In this document: positions 34,916 to 58,794 of the stretch, in pieces
Layout of the letters: every line of letters begins with the position of its first letter
Position numbering within the stretch: position 1 is the stretch's first letter
DNA from: Planctomycetia bacterium
GTDB lineage: Bacteria > Planctomycetota > Planctomycetia > Pirellulales > PNKZ01
DNA length: 64,000 bases
Assembly (NCBI GenBank): GCA_021413845.1
Contig: JAIOPP010000137.1
Location: 1-64,000 of the forward strand
Direction: 5' to 3'
Position numbers and translations under genes: made by a program
The notes under the pieces: model-generated
Databases searched by the model: none
Seen by the model: the letters and a program-made list of their open reading frames with translations, nothing else
What the model was told of the DNA's origin: nothing

Positions 34916-37900
34916 TTAGTTCATCCCGAGATCGCGAAGGAAGTCGTCGAGTTCGGCGTCGTTCTTCTGTGAAGCCGGAGCCGCTGCCGGTTGGGGCACC
35001 GGCTTCGTGCCGTTTTTCGCAGGCTCCGCTTTCTTCGGCTCAGCCATCTCCGCGACCGGCTCCGCTGCTTCGAGCCCGAACACGCCGAGATCGATCGCGT
35101 CGTTCTTCGGCGCGGAGGCAAGATCGAGGAAACCAAGATCGATTTCCGCGGAAGGCACATGTGCGACTTCCGCCGACGGGTCGATCGAGGCGGCCGGCGA
35201 TTCCTCGACCGGCGTCGTCTCCGCGACGTCGTCGGAGAGGGAGAGGAAACTCAGATCCATCTCGGCCTCGTCTTTGGCATCGTCCTTCACGTCGCTCGGC
35301 GCAGCGTTTTCTACCGAAGCGCCGGCGTCCGTCGGCCAAGGGGCGGTTTCCGCCTTCGCCGTTTCGGTCTCGGCGAACATCGCGTCGAGATCGAACTCGG
35401 GCTCGCGCGTCGCTCGCGATGGGTCGTCGAGCCCGGCGAGGAACGACTCGGCCTCTTCGACCACACTCGGCGAACCGAGATAGGCGACGGTCCGATCGGT
35501 CTCGCCGTCGTTGCGGCCGGTGTCGTTCTTCTTGGCGGCTAATTCGGGATTGGCATTCGCATCGAGCGGTTCGTCGGCTGTCTCGTCGACGAAAGAAAAT
35601 GCCTCGACTTCGCCGGAAGCCACGGCCTCGGCCGGCGGCGTACTTTCGGCTTTCGGGATGCCCCACGGATCGGCATCGCCGGCAGGTTCGTCGAAAGCAA
35701 ACACCGAGGTCGCAGCGTCCGCTTCCGAGGTCGGCGCAGCGCCCCATTGCAGAGTTTCATTCGACGACGCATCGTTCGATTGCGCATCGTTCTCCGGCGA
35801 GCTTGTCTGCGGCTCTTCGTCGACGGGAGGAGTCGCCGTCGTGTCGGTCGCGGCGGCGATGCTCGGGGCCGACTTCGGACGAGGCTCGAACGAGCGGCCG
35901 GCCGGCGTTTCCGGCTCCATCGCGACGACGTCGAAGCGCGGCGGCCGAACGCTGACACGGGTCAACGAGCGCAACGAAGAACTCAGCCGCAGATCGACAT
36001 CGACCGAGCGCTGCCGATTCGAGACCGGCGGCGCTGCGGGCACGGACGGGGCTGCAGGAGCAAGCGCCTCCGCAGCAGGAGCCGCCTCGTCGATTGGTTC
36101 GAGGCCCATCAGCTCAAAAGGGGGCGCGTCGCCGGCCGGTGAATCTTGAGCCGCTGAATCCGAAATCGCCGAGTCTGCGGCGACGGATACTTCGGCATCG
36201 GCTTCGAGCACTGCCGGTTCCCATGCTTCAGGCGAGGACGACAGCGGCACTTCCTGCGACCACGGGTCGCTTGGAGCGGACGCAGCTTCGGCTGCCAGCG
36301 ACTCGCTCGCGGCCGGCGATTCCGAGTCGGCAGCCGGTTCCGGCGCTGCTTCGGAATCCCAAGCGGAGAAGAGATCCTCGTCTTTCGCTGCCGCTACTTC
36401 TTCCTTCGCCTCTGGGGCGGCTTCGCCTACTGCGGTCTCGGCCGGTAGGGCATCGGCTGCGACAGGGTCGAGCGACGCCATCCAATCGTGCGGATCCGGC
36501 GCTGCCGTCGGCTCAGCCGCCGCACTCGACTCGGAAGTCGATTCGGCGAGCGTGAAGTCATCGAAGAGGCCGGGCGATTCGCTCTCCGTTGCGGGAGCGG
36601 GGGGCGAGGCCTCAGCGTCTACTTTTTTTTCAACCGCGGGCGCGAAGTCGTCCAGAAAAAACGGTGCTTCCGCTGCCGGGCTTTCGACGATGGGGCTTTC
36701 AACGGCCGGGCCTTCTACTGCCGGGTTCTCGGCAACCGGTGCTTCGGCACTCCATTCGTCGAAGTTCCATTCCTCATCGGTCGGTTTCTCTTCGGCCGAC
36801 TTCGCCTCAGTCGATTCCGTAGCCGCCGGCTCCGCGACAACCGGCTCGCTCACGACCAGTTCTTCTACGGCAGCTGTTTCTGCAACAGCATCTGCGGGCT
36901 TCGGCTCCTCGGCGCTCGGCTCTTCCGTAAAGAAGTCGCCGGCGAAGAGATCGAATTCGTCGCTCGCAGCCGACTCGACAGGAGCATCGGCGGGGGCCGC
37001 TTCGCTAACTGCCGCTTCACCGGCAGCGGCTTGGTCCCAACTATTTTCCGGAGGCGTGGCTTCGCTCGGCTTCTCGGCCCCCCAGGCCACGGTCTGGTCA
37101 GGAGTTTCTAAAGCCGGAGCTGCGGCCGGCGAAACGTCGTCGAGCGGGATCGGCGCGTCGAGCGATTTCCAGCCGGACGTGACCACCGAAGCGGCCTGGT
37201 CGTCGAAGATCGGTCCGATCGCAGCGCCGCCGGTTTTTGGGCCCGTCACGTCGAACATCGGTAGCGGGCTATCGTCGAGCGGGATCGGGTCGAACGATTG
37301 CTTCGGCGGCGCGACGGGAAGTTTATTCACGACCGGCGCATCGGCAGCAGTCGCCGACTTCTTCGCAGGCTTGCTCGGCTTCGCTTTCGGTTTTGCGGAG
37401 CCGGAGAAGAGCATTTTGATTTTGTCGAAGACCGAGACTTTCGCGACCGCGGGCTTCGAGGCCTTCGCCGGCGTCGTCTTGCTCGGCGCCACCAGGGGCG
37501 CTGCCGGAGAGACGAACTGCTCGGTGACGTCTAACTCAGCGGCATCTAGCTCCGGGGCGTCTTGCTTGGCCGAGATGGGGCCGACGGCGAAGTTCGTCGG
37601 CGGTGCGAGATCGAAGCTCGGCGCTGCGGCACTCGGAGCAGCCGCAGAGAAATCGGCGAACATGTCGGCTGCGGCTTCCGGCTCGTTCGCTTTCGGTTCG
37701 TCGGAAGTCGCCGCCGGCGAGGCCTCGCCCGAGAGGAAATCGAAATCATCGGCCGGCGCCGAAGTCGACTTCATCGGTTCCAACGCCACCGGTTCCGTGG
37801 CCAGAGGGGCGAAGCTCGGCGGCGCGATCGCGGGTGCCTGCTTGGCAACTTCCGGCAGAGCGGGCTTGAGGATCGAGGGGATGTTCGCCGCCGTCTTGCC

Positions 37901-40039
37901 CGAGTCGAGATCGAGGCCGGTGAAGGCGACCGTTTCGTCCGAGGTCTTCGGCTTCGGCTTCTTCTTCACATCGAAGTTCGAGAAGTCGAACGTCGGCTCT
38001 TGCTTCGCTTCGATCGGCTCGATGGCCGGCGGAGGGGCCGATGGAACCTCGTCGAGATCTAAGGAAATCTCCTCGAGTTCTTCTTCCTTGAGTTCTTCGA
38101 CGGGAGATTCGGCCGCCGAATCGTCTAACGAATCGAAATCGAAAGTCGGTTCGTGCTCCGCAGCGACGGCATCGGCGAGCGACATCGACTCCGAAGCGGC
38201 ATCGAAGACCGGCACTTCGGCCGGAGGCGCGTCGAACGTGAACGACTCGGCTCGTTCGGCCGGCGCGACAGCCGCGGCATCGGCCGCTGCGTGGAAGGGG
38301 GGCTCGTCGATAGCCGGCTCTTCCATGACGATGTCATCGGCTTCTTCGACCTCAGCAGCCGAGGCCATCTCCGGCATCGGGGGCAATTCGGAAACTGTCG
38401 GCGGAGCGACCGGCTCGGTGAACGGAAACTCGTCGACGTCGGCCGGCGACGGCGCGGCGGCTGCCGGTTGCTGCGGCGTTTCTTTCGCGAGCGTTTCTTC
38501 GACGAGAACATCGTCGAGCGCGATCTCTTCCGGCGACGGTGTTTCGTCCCAGACGAGCTCTTCTTCGCGCGCTTCGAAAGGGGCCGGCTCTTCGGCCGAT
38601 TCTTCGATCGATGAAGCTGCCGCGGAAGGCGTTTCCGGGAAGTCGTCGAAAAGTTTTTGTTCGTCTGGTGCCGGTTGCTCGTCTGTCGCTACGAGGTTTT
38701 CGACTTCTTGCTGATCAGCTGCTTCGGCAGCAGGAGCCATTTCGGTCGGCGCTTCGGCGACGTCGTCCAAGAACGCGTCGAGGTCGAGATCGTCGTCGAG
38801 CGAAGCAGCGCTTTCCATCGCAGGCGCGGGAGCTTCGATCGGCTCTGGTTGAACCGATTCAGGCTGAACCGGTTCCGACTTAGCCTCGAGTTCGGCGCTC
38901 TTCGATTCGATCTCTTCCGGCGCCACTTTCGCTTTCGCCGAGCCGGTGAAATCGAACTGCGAGGCGAGATCGTCGAAGCCGACTTCCGCCTTGGCGGGAC
39001 CGGCCAACGGTTCGGCAGCGGCGGGGCCGGCGGAAAGGAAATCGAAATCGAGACCGCCGCTCTTCTTCGGTTTTTCGGCAGGCGGCTGCTTTTCGACCGG
39101 CTGCTTCGCAACCGGTGCCGGAGGTTCGATCTTCGGAGCCGGCGGTTCGATCTTAGCGGCCGGTGCTTTGGTAGCCGGTGCGCTCGCTTCCGGTTTCGAC
39201 TTCCCCTTTTCTACGGACTTCTCAACTTTTTTTTCAACTACCTCGGGCTTAATCTCCTCGAAAAACGACTCGTCGAGCTCGACGTCTTCGGCTTTGAAAT
39301 CAACCGTCTTCTCGGACGTGGCACTGAAGTCGGTCGTCAGTTGATCGCCGCTCTTGGCCTTCGGTTCGTCGAAGCCGAGTTCGCTGAAGTCGATCTCGCC
39401 GGCGTCTCGTTCGCTCGGGGCAGATTTCTTTGCATCTGGAACTTCGTCGAGCAAGAAGTCGAGATCCATTTCGTCGGTCTCGCCGCCGCTCGGTGCTTTC
39501 GGCTTGTCGGCCTGCTTCGGCGCAAGCGGAGCCTTGGCGATCGGCTTCTTCGCGGCGTCGGGCAACTTCGCTTCGATGGTTTGTTCGGCCGATGAGCCGG
39601 CGGCCTTCTGTTTCGGTTCCGGCGCTTCGCCGGCCGGGGCGTCGTCGAGGATGAAGTCGATATCGAGTTCGCCTCGATCGATCGCTTGCGTTTCGGCCAG
39701 GCCCGACTCCTCAGGCTTCGGTTCTTTGCGCTTCTTGCCTGTGCCCGGCAAGTCGTATTCGGCGCGGAACGTGAGTGGGCCGATCGCCAGAATCTGGCCG
39801 GGACGAACGACGGTCGCTTTCTCGATCTTATCGCCGTCGACGAACGTACCGTTCGAAGAGCCGTTGTCGAGCACGACGAGATGGCCCTTCACTTCCGAGA
39901 GCTTGCAATGTTCGCGACTGACCGTCGGGTGCGAGATGATGAGATCGGCCTTATGACCTCGGCCGATCGTCATGGGAAGTCGGAGTTTGACTTCGCCCAT
40001 GTTCGCTTTGCCACCGATGACGACCAGCTTTGCATCCAT
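34916..40039 (-). CDS. Giant FHA-domain protein with acidic low-complexity repeats
   Basis: A 1707-residue protein. Residues 1-95 form a complete FHA phosphothreonine-binding domain: TIGRGHKADL, SREHC (41-45) and NGSSNGTFVDGDK (59-71). The remaining 1600 residues are Glu/Ala/Pro/Asp/Ser-rich and presumably disordered. They are punctuated by a recurring acidic-hydrophobic micro-motif such as LDIDFILDD (125), MDLDFLLDEV (191), LDFDFLSAG (330), DLDLDAFLDDV, FDFDSLDD, MDLSFLSLSDDV, EIDLGFLDLAS and the final ELDDFLRDLGMN. The micro-motifs look like short linear docking elements separated by spacers. A short basic patch KKPKPKT occurs mid-protein. The function is unknown; a cytoplasmic scaffold for Ser/Thr-kinase signalling is a reasonable guess. 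Confidence 0.9.
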   Translation of the reverse strand: MDAKLVVIGGKANMGEVKLRLPMTIGRGHKADLIISHPTVSREHCKLSEVKGHLVVLDNGSSNGTFVDGDKIEKATVVRPGQILAIGPLTFRAEYDLPGTGKKRKEPKPEESGLAETQAIDRGELDIDFILDDAPAGEAPEPKQKAAGSSAEQTIEAKLPDAAKKPIAKAPLAPKQADKPKAPSGGETDEMDLDFLLDEVPDAKKSAPSERDAGEIDFSELGFDEPKAKSGDQLTTDFSATSEKTVDFKAEDVELDESFFEEIKPEVVEKKVEKSVEKGKSKPEASAPATKAPAAKIEPPAPKIEPPAPVAKQPVEKQPPAEKPKKSGGLDFDFLSAGPAAAEPLAGPAKAEVGFDDLASQFDFTGSAKAKVAPEEIESKSAELEAKSEPVQPESVQPEPIEAPAPAMESAASLDDDLDLDAFLDDVAEAPTEMAPAAEAADQQEVENLVATDEQPAPDEQKLFDDFPETPSAAASSIEESAEEPAPFEAREEELVWDETPSPEEIALDDVLVEETLAKETPQQPAAAAPSPADVDEFPFTEPVAPPTVSELPPMPEMASAAEVEEADDIVMEEPAIDEPPFHAAADAAAVAPAERAESFTFDAPPAEVPVFDAASESMSLADAVAAEHEPTFDFDSLDDSAAESPVEELKEEELEEISLDLDEVPSAPPPAIEPIEAKQEPTFDFSNFDVKKKPKPKTSDETVAFTGLDLDSGKTAANIPSILKPALPEVAKQAPAIAPPSFAPLATEPVALEPMKSTSAPADDFDFLSGEASPAATSDEPKANEPEAAADMFADFSAAAPSAAAPSFDLAPPTNFAVGPISAKQDAPELDAAELDVTEQFVSPAAPLVAPSKTTPAKASKPAVAKVSVFDKIKMLFSGSAKPKAKPSKPAKKSATAADAPVVNKLPVAPPKQSFDPIPLDDSPLPMFDVTGPKTGGAAIGPIFDDQAASVVTSGWKSLDAPIPLDDVSPAAAPALETPDQTVAWGAEKPSEATPPENSWDQAAAGEAAVSEAAPADAPVESAASDEFDLFAGDFFTEEPSAEEPKPADAVAETAAVEELVVSEPVVAEPAATESTEAKSAEEKPTDEEWNFDEWSAEAPVAENPAVEGPAVESPIVESPAAEAPFFLDDFAPAVEKKVDAEASPPAPATESESPGLFDDFTLAESTSESSAAAEPTAAPDPHDWMASLDPVAADALPAETAVGEAAPEAKEEVAAAKDEDLFSAWDSEAAPEPAADSESPAASESLAAEAASAPSDPWSQEVPLSSSPEAWEPAVLEADAEVSVAADSAISDSAAQDSPAGDAPPFELMGLEPIDEAAPAAEALAPAAPSVPAAPPVSNRQRSVDVDLRLSSSLRSLTRVSVRPPRFDVVAMEPETPAGRSFEPRPKSAPSIAAATDTTATPPVDEEPQTSSPENDAQSNDASSNETLQWGAAPTSEADAATSVFAFDEPAGDADPWGIPKAESTPPAEAVASGEVEAFSFVDETADEPLDANANPELAAKKNDTGRNDGETDRTVAYLGSPSVVEEAESFLAGLDDPSRATREPEFDLDAMFAETETAKAETAPWPTDAGASVENAAPSDVKDDAKDEAEMDLSFLSLSDDVAETTPVEESPAASIDPSAEVAHVPSAEIDLGFLDLASAPKNDAIDLGVFGLEAAEPVAEMAEPKKAEPAKNGTKPVPQPAAAPASQKNDAELDDFLRDLGMN

Positions 40040-41114: not shown

Positions 41115-42632
41115 ATGTCGAATCAGGACGAAACCGCCGTCGCCGAAGAAGGGGCCGAAACCACGCCGAAGAAGCTCGATCTTCAAGTCAATATTGCGAA
41201 GAAGAGTTCTTGCGAGCGCCACATCACGGTCGTCATCGATCGGCCGGACATCGAGCGCTATTTCGACAACGCGCTGAAAGACTTGATGCCGAAGGCCGCC
41301 GTGCCGGGCTTCCGCCAAGGCCGCGCCCCGCGCAAACTCGTCGAAACCCGCTTCCGCAAAGACGTGACCGATCAGGTGAAGGGCTCGTTGTTGATGGATA
41401 GCCTGTCGCAGGTTTCCACCGACAACGACCTCTCGCCGATCAGCGAGCCGTCGTTCGATCCGCTCGCCGTGACGCTCCCCGAAGAAGGGGCCATGACGTT
41501 CGAGTTCGATATCGAAGTCCGTCCGGAATTCGATATGCCGAATTGGAAGGGCCTCAAGATCGAGCGCCCGACGCGCGAATTCACCGACGCCGACGTCGAC
41601 GTGCAGCTTAAGACGCTGCTGGCCTCGCAAGGGACGCTCGTTCCGCACGACGGCACCGCCGACGCCGGCGACTTCGTCAACCTGAGAATCACGGCGAAGA
41701 ACGGCGACGAAGTCGTCAGCGAGACGACCCACGACGGCGTCTGCATTCGCAAATCGATCTCGTTCCACGATGCCAAGCTCGACGGCTTCGATAAGCTGCT
41801 CGTCGGCACGAAGGCCGGCGATAAGAAGACCGCCGAAGTCGAGATCAGCGAGAACGCCGCCAACGAAACGCTCCGCGGCAAGAAGCTGAACGTCGAACTC
41901 GAAGTGCTCGAAGTGAAGAAGGTCGAGTTGCCGGCCATGACGCCGGAATTCCTGCAAACCCTCGGCGATTTCGAGAGCGAAGACGATCTCCGCTCGACGG
42001 TTCGCAAAAGCCTCGAGCGTCGGCTGCAATACCACCAACAACAACAGGCCCGTAAGCAGATTCTGTCGTCGCTCACCGTCGCGGCCGATTGGGACTTGCC
42101 GCCGGACTTGCTCAAGCGTCAGTCGGGCCGGGAGTTCGAACGAAGCGTGATGGAGCTGCGTCGCAGCGGTTTCGGCGAGCCGGAAATTCGCGCTCACGCC
42201 AACGAGTTGCTGCGGAACAGCCGCGAGCAAACGGCCAAGTCGCTCAAGGAGCATTTCGTGCTCGAGCGGATCGCCGAAGAAGAAAAGATCGACGTCTCGT
42301 CGTCGGACTACGATGACGAAATCGGGCTGATCGCCGAACAAAGCGGCGAGAGCAATCGGCGCGTGCGGGCCCAGATGGAAAAGCGGGGCTTGATGGACAC
42401 GTTGCACAACCAAATCATCGAACGGAAGACGATCGACGTGATCTTGGCGAACGCGAAGTTCGACGAAACCAAGTACGCTTTGGAAGTGCCGACGACCGAA
42501 GCGATCGATACGTCGCTCGCCGGCGGTGAGAAGGCTTCCGACATTCCCGAAGCCGCCACGTCGGGCGATTCGCCTTACAACAAGGGCGAACACAAGCACT
42601 CGGGCGATAAGCACACGGAACCGACGACTTAG
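41115..42632 (+). CDS. tig: Trigger factor
   Basis: A 505-residue ribosome-associated chaperone and peptidyl-prolyl isomerase. The N-terminal domain carries the ribosome-docking motif GFRQGRAPRKL (65-75), equivalent to GFRxGK. A degenerate FKBP-like domain follows (about 165-265, GDFVNLRITAKNGDEVV). The C-terminal helical arms extend to about 460, and the last 40 residues are low-complexity with His. The gene stands directly before two clpP genes, the common bacterial order. A strong stem-loop lies between tig and the first clpP, so downstream genes may be partly uncoupled. Confidence 0.95.
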   Translation: MSNQDETAVAEEGAETTPKKLDLQVNIAKKSSCERHITVVIDRPDIERYFDNALKDLMPKAAVPGFRQGRAPRKLVETRFRKDVTDQVKGSLLMDSLSQVSTDNDLSPISEPSFDPLAVTLPEEGAMTFEFDIEVRPEFDMPNWKGLKIERPTREFTDADVDVQLKTLLASQGTLVPHDGTADAGDFVNLRITAKNGDEVVSETTHDGVCIRKSISFHDAKLDGFDKLLVGTKAGDKKTAEVEISENAANETLRGKKLNVELEVLEVKKVELPAMTPEFLQTLGDFESEDDLRSTVRKSLERRLQYHQQQQARKQILSSLTVAADWDLPPDLLKRQSGREFERSVMELRRSGFGEPEIRAHANELLRNSREQTAKSLKEHFVLERIAEEEKIDVSSSDYDDEIGLIAEQSGESNRRVRAQMEKRGLMDTLHNQIIERKTIDVILANAKFDETKYALEVPTTEAIDTSLAGGEKASDIPEAATSGDSPYNKGEHKHSGDKHTEPTT

Positions 42633-50024: not shown

Positions 50025-50828
50025 ATGACCGCTGCCGCCGAACCCCGTTTGACCGTCCCTAAATTTATCGCAATGAAAGGGTCGGGACGTAAAATCTCGA
50101 TGCTCACCGCCTACGACTACCCCATGGCGCGGCTCCTCGACGAGTCGGGCATCGACGCCATTCTCGTCGGCGACAGCATGTCGATGGTCGTCCAAGGGCA
50201 CGACACGACCCTGCCGGTGACGCTCGACGAAATCATCTATCACGCCGAAATGGTCGGCCGCGCCGTCCGACGGGCCCTGGTTATCGTCGATATGCCGTTT
50301 CCGACCAACCACCTGGGCCGCTACAAAGCGGTGGAGAACGCCGGTCGGATCCTCAAGGAAACCCGTTGCCAAGCCGTCAAGCTCGAGGGGGGGGCCGACC
50401 AAGCCGAGATCATCGCCGGACTCACCTCGGCCGGCATTCCGGTCGTCGCCCACTGCGGGCTTCGTCCGCAGAACGTCCATCTGCTCGGGGGTTATAAAGT
50501 GCAGCGCGATCGCGAACGCTTGCTGCGCGAAGCGGCCGAGGCCGAGCAGGCCGGCGCGTTCTGCGTCCTCCTCGAATGCATTCCGGCCGATCTCGCCGCC
50601 GAGATCACGAAGAGCCTCCGTGTGCCTACGATCGGCATCGGAGCCGGCGGCGACTGCGACGGCCAAGTCCTCGTCACGCCCGACATGCTCGGCCTCACCT
50701 CCGGGTACACGCCGAAGTTCGTCAAGCAATACGCCGACCTCCGCGCGCAGATTCAAACCGCGGTGACGGCGTATCGCGACGAAGTCGGCGACGGCCGATT
50801 CCCAACGCCCGACCAGCAGTATCGCTAA
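50025..50828 (+). CDS. panB: 3-methyl-2-oxobutanoate hydroxymethyltransferase
   Basis: A 267-residue TIM-barrel enzyme that transfers the hydroxymethyl group from methylene-THF to alpha-ketoisovalerate, the first committed step of pantothenate synthesis. Signatures: [20 protein letters not shown] (25-44), [32 protein letters not shown] and a C-terminal [20 protein letters not shown]. The length is normal. The next gene starts 51 bases downstream on the same strand, so cotranscription is possible. Confidence 0.96.
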
Positions 50829-50878
50829 CGCACGCCCCGTCTCCTTCGCAACATTTACTCTCAGCACGGAACTTGAAC

Positions 50879-52966
<2,088 letters not shown>

Positions 52967-56547: not shown

Positions 56548-58794
56548 ATGCGGAATCGCCGCGTCTACCGTGCGTTGGCCGTTACGACGGTCGCCGTCAT
56601 CGCCGCCGCCACCCTGGCGGCCGTCATGCGTAAGTCGGAAGCCGACACGCCTAAGCCATTCGTCGCCGCACCCGCGCAAGATCGCGCCGCGGAAGCCACG
56701 GCCACGACCGATCCGAACACGAAGACCGGCAACCGCATTCGCTTCGGCACGACCGCATCGTCGGACACGACGGCCGGCGGCACCCCTTCGAGCAGTTCTG
56801 CCGTGAGCGGCCCGATCCGCGTCGGCAACCGCTACGAAGGTTACGCTGTTCGCCAAGCCGCGGCGGAAGAACCGATTGCCGAATCGCGCAACGAGCCGGC
56901 CGAGCCGTTCGCCAACAATGTTCCACCGGTGGGCGCTATGCCGACCCCGGCGCCGCCGTTGCCGCCGCGCGCTGCGATGCCCCCTAGCACTCCGATGCCG
57001 ACGGTCGCGAAACCGCAAACGTCCGCCGCGGCCCCGGCGAGCGATTCCCGTTACGGTACGACGACGAGTTCGCCCGCCGCCGCTTCACCGTACGCCCCCA
57101 CGGTTCCTACTTATACGACTCCTCCGGCGAACGCGCTGCCCCGCGCACCGATCGCCGCCGCGTCGACTTCTACTGTGCCGACTTCTACTGCGTCGACTAC
57201 CGCCGCTTCGGCTCCGACTTCGGTTACTGCTGCCGCTCCGGCACCATTCAGCCCCGCCGGCTCGGCCTCGACGATTCCGGATCGCGCGCCACTGCCGGTT
57301 GCGGCAAGTTCATCGACGATGGCCGCAGCGACACCGCCGGTCAACCCTGCATCATCGGTCGGCTCTTCAACAACGACATCCAGCGGCGTCGGCGGCACCG
57401 GTCGGCCTGGCGAGAAAGCTCTCGAAGGAACGCAGAGCCCGACGCTCACGATCGAAAAAATCGCTCCGCAAGAGATCCAAGTCGGGAAGCCGGCCCTGTT
57501 CGAGATCGTCGTCCGCAACGTCGGCGGCGCGACGGCCGGCGACGTCGAGATTCGTGATCTCGTGCCGCAAGGAACTCAGTTGAAGTCGTCGAACCCGACC
57601 GCAGCGCGCGGGCCGGCGGGCGAGCTCATTTGGTTGCTCGGCGCGATGAAGCCGGGGGACGAAGCGAAAGTACAAATGGAATTGCTCCCGACGACCGAGG
57701 GAGAGATCGGCAGCGTGGCGACCGTCCGCTTTGCGGCGGCGGCGAGCGTGCGCACGTTATGCACGAAGCCGGAACTGGTCGTCGAAGTGCAGATGCCCCG
57801 CACCGTGTTAGCCGGCGACGACGTACCCGTCCGCATTCGGGTCTCGAACCCCGGCACCGGCATCGCCACCGGAATCTTTCTCACCGAAGTCGTACCGGCA
57901 GGGATGGAGCATACGGCCGGCGGCGAGCTCGAATACGAAGTCGGCAATCTGCAACCGAACGAATCGCGCGAGCTGGAGCTGACGCTTCGCGCCGTGAAAC
58001 AAGGCTCCGTCGTCAACATCATCCAAGGCGAAGGAGACGGCACGCTCCGTAGCGAAACGAAGACGCCGATCGAGATCGTCGCACCGGCTTTGACGTTGTC
58101 GATCGAAGGGCCGAAGCGCCGCTACTTGGATCGCCAGGCGACGTACACCGTTTCGCTCGCCAATCCCGGCACCGCCGCGGCGAAGGAAGTCGAACTGGCG
58201 ACCTTCTTGCCGAAGGGCATGCAATTCGTCGATGCCGACAACCACGGCGAATACGACGCCGCGACGCATAGCGTGCGCTGGCTGCTCGAAGAACTTCCGG
58301 CGAAGGAGAAGGGAAGCGTTTCGGTCACCGCGCTCCCTATCGAGCCGGGCCAGCAATTGCTCCGGGCCGAAACGACGGCGGCGCGCGGCGTCTCGGCGAA
58401 GCAAGAAGAAGCGATCATGATCGAGGGAGCGGCGTCGATCAATTTCCAAGTCGTCGACACGGCCGACCCGATCGAAGTCGGCGGCGACACGACGTATGAA
58501 ATCGTCGTTGCCAACCAGGGCTCGAAGGAAGCGACGAACGTGCAGCTCACGATCGCGCTGCCCGAAGGGATGAAGGCGCTCGACGCCGACGGCCCGGCCC
58601 GTTTTAACATCGCGGCTCGGCAAGTGACGTTTCAGCCTCTCGCGAAACTGGCCCCGAAACAAGAGACGACGTTCCGTGTTCGCGTGCAATGCGTGGCGGC
58701 CGGCGATCACCGTTGCCATGTGCAATTGACGTCGGACGATATGAAGACCCCCGTGACGAAAGAAGAAGGAACCCGGGTCTACGCCGACGAATAA
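56548..58794 (+). CDS. Surface protein with DUF11 repeats
   Basis: A 748-residue protein. An N-terminal hydrophobic anchor or signal (about 8-27, ALAVTTVAVIAAATLAAVM) is followed by a Pro/Ser/Thr/Ala-rich linker to about 290. Four DUF11/CARDB-like beta-sandwich repeats follow at about 296-400, 410-515, 515-625 and 631-748. Each contains N-x-G-x-x-x-A-x-x-V (for example VRNVGGATAGDVEIRDLVPQ and VANQGSKEATNVQLTIALPE). These repeats are known from OmcB-like cell-envelope proteins; here they probably give an extended cell-surface rod. The function is unknown. Confidence 0.88.
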   Translation: MRNRRVYRALAVTTVAVIAAATLAAVMRKSEADTPKPFVAAPAQDRAAEATATTDPNTKTGNRIRFGTTASSDTTAGGTPSSSSAVSGPIRVGNRYEGYAVRQAAAEEPIAESRNEPAEPFANNVPPVGAMPTPAPPLPPRAAMPPSTPMPTVAKPQTSAAAPASDSRYGTTTSSPAAASPYAPTVPTYTTPPANALPRAPIAAASTSTVPTSTASTTAASAPTSVTAAAPAPFSPAGSASTIPDRAPLPVAASSSTMAAATPPVNPASSVGSSTTTSSGVGGTGRPGEKALEGTQSPTLTIEKIAPQEIQVGKPALFEIVVRNVGGATAGDVEIRDLVPQGTQLKSSNPTAARGPAGELIWLLGAMKPGDEAKVQMELLPTTEGEIGSVATVRFAAAASVRTLCTKPELVVEVQMPRTVLAGDDVPVRIRVSNPGTGIATGIFLTEVVPAGMEHTAGGELEYEVGNLQPNESRELELTLRAVKQGSVVNIIQGEGDGTLRSETKTPIEIVAPALTLSIEGPKRRYLDRQATYTVSLANPGTAAAKEVELATFLPKGMQFVDADNHGEYDAATHSVRWLLEELPAKEKGSVSVTALPIEPGQQLLRAETTAARGVSAKQEEAIMIEGAASINFQVVDTADPIEVGGDTTYEIVVANQGSKEATNVQLTIALPEGMKALDADGPARFNIAARQVTFQPLAKLAPKQETTFRVRVQCVAAGDHRCHVQLTSDDMKTPVTKEEGTRVYADE

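Follow-up and report, generated by a model that had tools for sequence, protein, structure and literature searches.

The window, i.e. the whole stretch of 64,000 nucleotides analysed here, contains on its minus strand an open reading frame that starts at position 40039, ends with a stop codon at 34916-34918 and encodes a protein of 1,707 aa. The extent of this gene (34916..40039) is given by the open frame, by an orthologous neighbourhood divergent from tig and by a C-terminus that is kept in relatives; a plus-strand reading of the same interval was rejected because of its many stops. The protein is composed of one FHA domain followed by about 1,600 residues that are predicted to be disordered, the linker containing 19% Ala, 12.5% Pro, 12.4% Glu, and 9% Asp.

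FHA domain and genomic neighbourhood

The FHA domain comprises residues 1-97 (39749..40039, minus strand), as supported by Pfam, alignments, and a β fold predicted by AlphaFold with a pLDDT of 86-92 in the best blocks. PF00498 matches residues 24-87 (6.9e-15), and on the whole protein Pfam gives no match besides FHA except the overlapping FHA-like PF16697, in agreement with the single FHA domain that an earlier, sequence-only reading of this DNA had proposed. When two sets of orthologues are aligned G26 R27, S41 R42, H44, and N63 G64 are invariant, and structurally the domain resembles phosphopeptide-binding FHA domains, the top matches being the FHA structures of OdhI, GarA, DgcB, and CT664. 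The domain combines the FHA fold with the Arg, Ser, and Asn-Gly of the phosphothreonine pocket, as is characteristic of the FHA superfamily, and as these pocket residues are intact it is likely to read phosphothreonine. FHA matches were obtained in 57/57 genomes of the first search for relatives, and the genome from which the window comes has 11 of them. Relatives include Pirellula sp. and other Planctomycetota assemblies, which would place the host in the order Pirellulales.

Right behind the FHA domain lies a candidate phosphothreonine site of the T-Q-x-Φ type, LAETQAID (T117; 39674..39703, minus strand), which is found in most members of the genus. In residues 98-170 of the homologues T[QE]x[ILVMF] occurs 19 times vs 6.6 expected, and farther along their linkers, past residue 170, no enrichment was found.

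The divergent neighbour is the trigger factor gene tig (41115..42632, plus strand), identified by Pfam and by synteny across order and class. Roughly half of the examined loci have tig divergently upstream, among them loci of the genus, of several families within the order and of other families within the class, and in the window as well as in many relatives tig is followed by two clpP genes. The orthologues that adjoin tig are 150 to 1,707 residues long, their linkers ranging from about 40 to 1,600 residues. Downstream of the FHA gene the neighbours vary by group and include an ASCH protein, a thioredoxin-fold protein that by eye resembles DUF255/YyaL, and a regulator-like protein. Since the downstream gene differs between groups it was rejected as a partner, leaving only tig as a constant neighbour. 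In several families (L045, L052, L055, L057, L065, and others) the DUF255/YyaL-like gene, again named by eye, overlaps the FHA gene or follows it within about 100 bases, and a homologue is encoded elsewhere in the window (50576-52966). The window also contains a large open reading frame (56548-58794, plus strand) with a Ser/Thr/Pro-rich N-terminal half and repeated segments that look DUF11/CARDB-like by eye.

Motif array and conserved islands of the linker

In two segments folded with AlphaFold most of the linker has a pLDDT of less than 50, and for the last 378 residues no folded domain is predicted, the only structured elements being the tail helix, two helices of low confidence, and two short strands. 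The disordered chain proposed from the letters of the sequence is thus supported by prediction. Within this chain an alignment of the genus reveals islands in a fixed order: the FHA domain, the ETQAID-like site followed by ELDLDFLLDD, DFDFLSDL repeats, an amphipathic stretch (VFDKIKMLFSGS-like) leading into Lys/Pro-rich sequence, APIPLDD, the arginine-rich VDVDLRxxSSLR...MEPExPAGRSF, EIDLGFLDLE, and finally the tail DAELDDFLRDLGMN.

Short acidic-hydrophobic motifs recur along the linker, all encoded on the minus strand. DIDFI (residues 126-130; 39650..39664), DLDFLL (192-197; 39449..39466), two copies of DFDFL (331-335, 39035..39049 and 765-769, 37733..37747), and DLGFL (1634-1638; 35126..35140) are found by both the genus alignment and a motif scan, and the scan also gives EFDLF (1028-1032; 36944..36958) and DLSFL (1595-1599; 35243..35257). 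That such motifs are commoner than composition would predict, as the original reading required, is confirmed by shuffling: the linker contains 30 loose acidic-hydrophobic clusters vs 13.4 expected (maximum of 400 local shuffles, 21), and the tight core [DE][FLIM][DNS]FL occurs four times vs 0.03 expected. Six other proteins of the same family carry 23-31 clusters each vs 10-12 expected, i.e. by cluster count the array exceeds chance in 7/7 proteins of the family. The tight DFDFL form is present in the window protein and its four closest relatives, the latter having 3-8 copies of the tight core vs 0.01-0.02 expected. A variant pattern, [DE].?[FLIMW][DNSGA][FWL][LFIM], matches nine times vs 0.48 expected, and the strict form D[LIF]DF[LI][LS][DS] just twice (0.00 expected); thus, the initial count of at least a dozen motifs is true only of variants. 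If no motif is preset, the unbiased profile around every linker Phe of five relatives reads D-F-D-F-L: position -1 is enriched in D (113 vs 30) and position -2 in F (57 vs 16), followed on the other side by L at +1, F at +2, and L at +3. Large hydrophobic residues are commoner than expected at spacings of 2, 3, and 5 and rarer at 8-9.

The clusters do alternate with spacers, as had been supposed. Identity in the genus alignment is 61% for motif residues and 12% for the spacers, i.e. the remaining linker, a contrast to be taken as a somewhat inflated upper estimate because aligners of disordered regions favour matching aromatics. In the window gene only five tandem repeats can be detected at the DNA level, all short and of low score, and recent tandem duplication as the source of its array was rejected on this basis. 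In two relatives of the same family, L043 and L044, near-identical repeats have different cores (DPWSFLEQNPI and DDAFNFL), which suggests that the array grew repeatedly and independently. TV[AD][FWY] was considered as a second conserved array and dropped, as it occurs five times vs 0.2 expected in the window protein but once vs 0.2 in L039 (p 0.17).

Outside the family the DFDFL array is missing from nearly all long homologues; consequently, any role of the array must be lineage-specific. Homologues of the same family keep the motifs, whereas orthologues outside it retain the FHA domain and the tail without the DFDFL array, an outcome that had been named in advance as refuting and that does refute part of the original idea. 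Likewise, the supposed abundance in planctomycetes applies to the combination of FHA domain and tail and not to the array, which is confined to one family.

Two further islands stand out. The basic amphipathic island (residues 857-896; 37352..37471, minus strand) consists of VFDKIKMLFSGS followed by the Lys/Pro-rich KPKAKPSKPAKKS. In a scan of homologues 14/17 long ones have such an island, most often exactly one (shuffle mean about 0), which in most of them is aromatic or amphipathic; in other families it takes the form RRGWWPFGRK amid Lys/Pro-rich sequence. The arginine-rich island (residues 1341-1397; 35849..36019, minus strand), VDVDLRLSSSLRSLTRVSVRPPR...MEPETPAGRSF, was recognized in the genus alignment, where it is 32% identical across four members vs 12% for the spacers, and AlphaFold predicts two short strands in it (block pLDDT 59-75). 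Its VDVDLRLSSSLRSLTRVSVRPPRFDVVAMEPETPAGRSF stretch is kept in the genus and in one related genus and has no known match. Aromatic-basic peptides of the WWPF[GKR] type were also seen in FHA proteins of other families, at the C-terminus in L106, L109, L122, and L031 (e.g. SRTGWWPFRR) and internally in L045, L047, and L119. They resemble membrane-active peptides such as tritrpticin, and such a peptide may possibly serve as membrane anchor in place of the FLxxL tail. L049, an FHA protein of 1,074 residues, ends with tandem SPRKK repeats that follow EEEVA repeats, giving it a histone-tail-like composition.

The conserved C-terminal tail

The putative docking tail DAELDDFLRDLGMN forms residues 1694-1707 (34919..34960, minus strand). 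It appears as a confidently predicted helix (pLDDT 80-88) within a chain of low confidence. Its motif, [DE]-x-Φ-x-x-F-L-x-x-Φ, lies at or near the C-terminus: among the 32 tig-syntenic orthologues of the order the full Φ-x-x-F-L-x-x-Φ falls within the last 14 residues in 25 (0.1-0.3 expected, with 0.13 for this full form), and in five the core motif is missing from them. In a class-level sample of further families, a set that includes one protein again from the host's own order, the tail (DDAVADFLLGLKIDDDD-like) is found in the last 20 residues of 14/14 tig-syntenic FHA proteins vs 0.08 expected. When 39 tails are aligned on the Phe, it is present in 38 and preceded by an acidic residue at -6 in 34, with L/V/I/F/M at -3, L or F at +1, and L/I/V/F/M at +4. 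Even orthologues of only 150 aa have the tail, and a search of the genome with the tail profile returned the FHA protein as the sole credible match; one further match (E = 3) was judged spurious, as it is antisense to a gene, which by eye we take to be of the altronate dehydratase type.

The closing ELDDFLRDLG had been counted as one more copy of the array, a view that we abandon. Its hydrophobic residues follow Φ-x-x-F-L vs Φ-x-F-L in the array, and the looser tail-spaced pattern [LIMFVW]..F[LFIM] shows no enrichment within the linker (1 vs 1.38 expected), so that the terminal motif has to be counted separately. A single strict internal copy, LDAFLDDV (residues 420-427; 38759..38782, minus strand), was detected vs 0.005 expected; it has counterparts at a similar position in three other members of the genus, and each of four close relatives has one or two strict copies. 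The tail is much older than the internal DFDFL-type array and is a different element, and the terminal helix is the best candidate for a site at which a class-conserved partner may dock.

As the tail is class-wide and, outside the host family, nearly all long homologues have no DFDFL array, the ancestral protein would most simply have been composed of FHA domain, linker, and docking tail, and the host family would have multiplied motifs within the linker. Judged by this distribution, it is the FHA domain together with the tail that defines the protein, the array being a local elaboration.

Proposed function and relation to known systems

We hold it to be somewhat more probable than its opposite that the protein is a class-wide phosphothreonine adaptor with a C-terminal docking helix, which in the host family has been lengthened into a multivalent scaffold. 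Anatomy, conservation, and non-randomness are taken from the sequence, disorder and the tail helix from prediction; from these we infer phosphothreonine binding, docking, membrane contact, and clustering. The protein would be a cytoplasmic adaptor whose FHA domain would recognize phosphothreonine in a client protein or in the T-Q-x-Φ site that closely follows the domain, and whose flexible acidic chain would join this domain to the C-terminal amphipathic helix (D/E-x-Φ-x-x-F-L-x-x-Φ), which may dock on a class-conserved partner. In the host family the chain would have grown tenfold and gained D-F-D-F-L-type motifs, one or more internal tail copies, and the basic amphipathic island, which probably contacts the membrane or pairs with the acidic motifs. 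The array and this island together would increase valency and may bring the chain to the membrane, resulting in a multivalent scaffold that could cluster its partners in a phosphorylation-dependent manner.

Alternatively, the tail and the internal motifs may bind the protein's own FHA domain or basic island, yielding a homopolymer or condensate that is switched by phosphorylation, or else a monomer that inhibits itself as GarA and OdhI do, with no separate conserved partner for the motifs. Such self-association via the T-Q-x-Φ site, which we rank as the main rival by analogy with GarA, OdhI, and Rv1747, is in our estimate unlikely. The site lies directly behind the FHA domain, acidic motifs and the basic aromatic island share one chain, the best matches include the solved FHA structures of GarA and OdhI, and the FHA-linker region of Rv1747 forms phosphorylation-dependent droplets (PMC9312465). 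However, in the AlphaFold model of residues 1-300, a weak test given the shallow alignment, the linker is of low confidence and without regular structure, with no sign of the first motifs folding onto the FHA domain, and short orthologues have the tail without a long array or basic island.

The breadth of linker length, about 40 to 1,600 residues among orthologues, could also reflect mostly neutral growth, in which the linker of a short FHA-tail protein was lengthened by slippage and duplication, the array being a by-product and only FHA domain and tail being at work. The near-identical repeats in L043 and L044 and the confinement of the array to one family fit such growth, but DNA-level tandem repeats are few in the window gene while motif residues are conserved and spacers diverge, and relatives carry distinct but similar motifs (DFDFL, DPWSFL, DAFNFL) in a constant order of islands; we regard it as quite unlikely. 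Still less probable is an SspB-like adaptor in which proteins with phosphothreonine are bound by the FHA domain and handed by the C-terminal peptide to a Clp unfoldase or trigger factor. Of all neighbours only the divergent tig is retained throughout order and class, clpP-clpP follows it in the window and many relatives, and the succession of folded domain, linker, and terminal peptide matches the SspB layout. Nevertheless, a shared neighbourhood by itself is weak evidence, divergent genes need have no more in common than a promoter region, no clpX was seen adjoining the FHA gene, and the tail is unlike the ClpX-binding peptide of SspB. Delivery to Clp or trigger factor is suggested only by the retained neighbour tig, and its boldest form, in which the tail helix would hand over phosphothreonine-marked proteins and the host family would have built a membrane-touching, multivalent hub that has about 1,700 residues and forms condensates when phosphorylated, is in our view very improbable.

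Returning to the class-wide adaptor, the protein looks like a signalling hub of a new kind and, as the sequence-only reading suggested, may act in Ser/Thr kinase signalling and form condensates. Ser/Thr kinases are numerous in planctomycetes, and their phosphothreonine readers are little studied; here, a simple conserved reader is at hand that combines a single FHA domain with a single C-terminal peptide and has one stable neighbour in the genome. The 14-residue tail peptide can be used directly as bait for the partner, and the natural series of proteins, whose lengths run from 150 to 1,707 residues and whose motifs number one or many, constitutes an evolutionary experiment leading from a single docking peptide to a multivalent scaffold.

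No family that matches the whole arrangement was found in Pfam or NCBIfam, as the sequence-only reading had anticipated, and a literature search, for which subscription papers were mostly out of reach, found no paper describing such an FHA protein. The NCBIfam matches all start within the FHA region, with scores well short of the cut-offs. The best, FhaB/FipA (Rv0019c), covers the FHA domain only, and with 48.3 bits vs a cut-off of 125 the window protein is not a member; FhaB/FipA is not known to have an array or FLxxL tail. The gliding motility protein GltG likewise has an N-terminal FHA domain followed by compositionally biased sequence, and its weak match extends to residue 261 (28.8 bits, cut-off 650). 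GarA and OdhI, actinobacterial regulators whose phosphosite is N-terminal in an ETTS motif, are small soluble FHA proteins with a kinase-target threonine near the FHA domain and belong to the closest solved structures by sequence and fold, but they are not known to have the long disordered chain or the C-terminal FLxxL tail, and the OdhI model scores 26.3 bits vs a cut-off of 200. SspB uses a flexible linker and a C-terminal peptide to deliver substrates to ClpX; the likeness is one of layout, i.e. folded recognition domain, flexible linker, and conserved C-terminal docking peptide, whereas the chemistry of domain and peptide differs. Rv1747 from Mycobacterium tuberculosis has two FHA domains fused to an ABC transporter, and the passage on its FHA-linker mentions no acidic-hydrophobic array or terminal helix (PMC9312465). 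This FHA-linker undergoes phosphorylation-dependent phase separation in vitro, an FHA domain with a disordered linker giving multivalency (PMC9312465), and the window protein shares with it a long, predicted disordered linker with repeated clusters above chance that may act as interaction sites.
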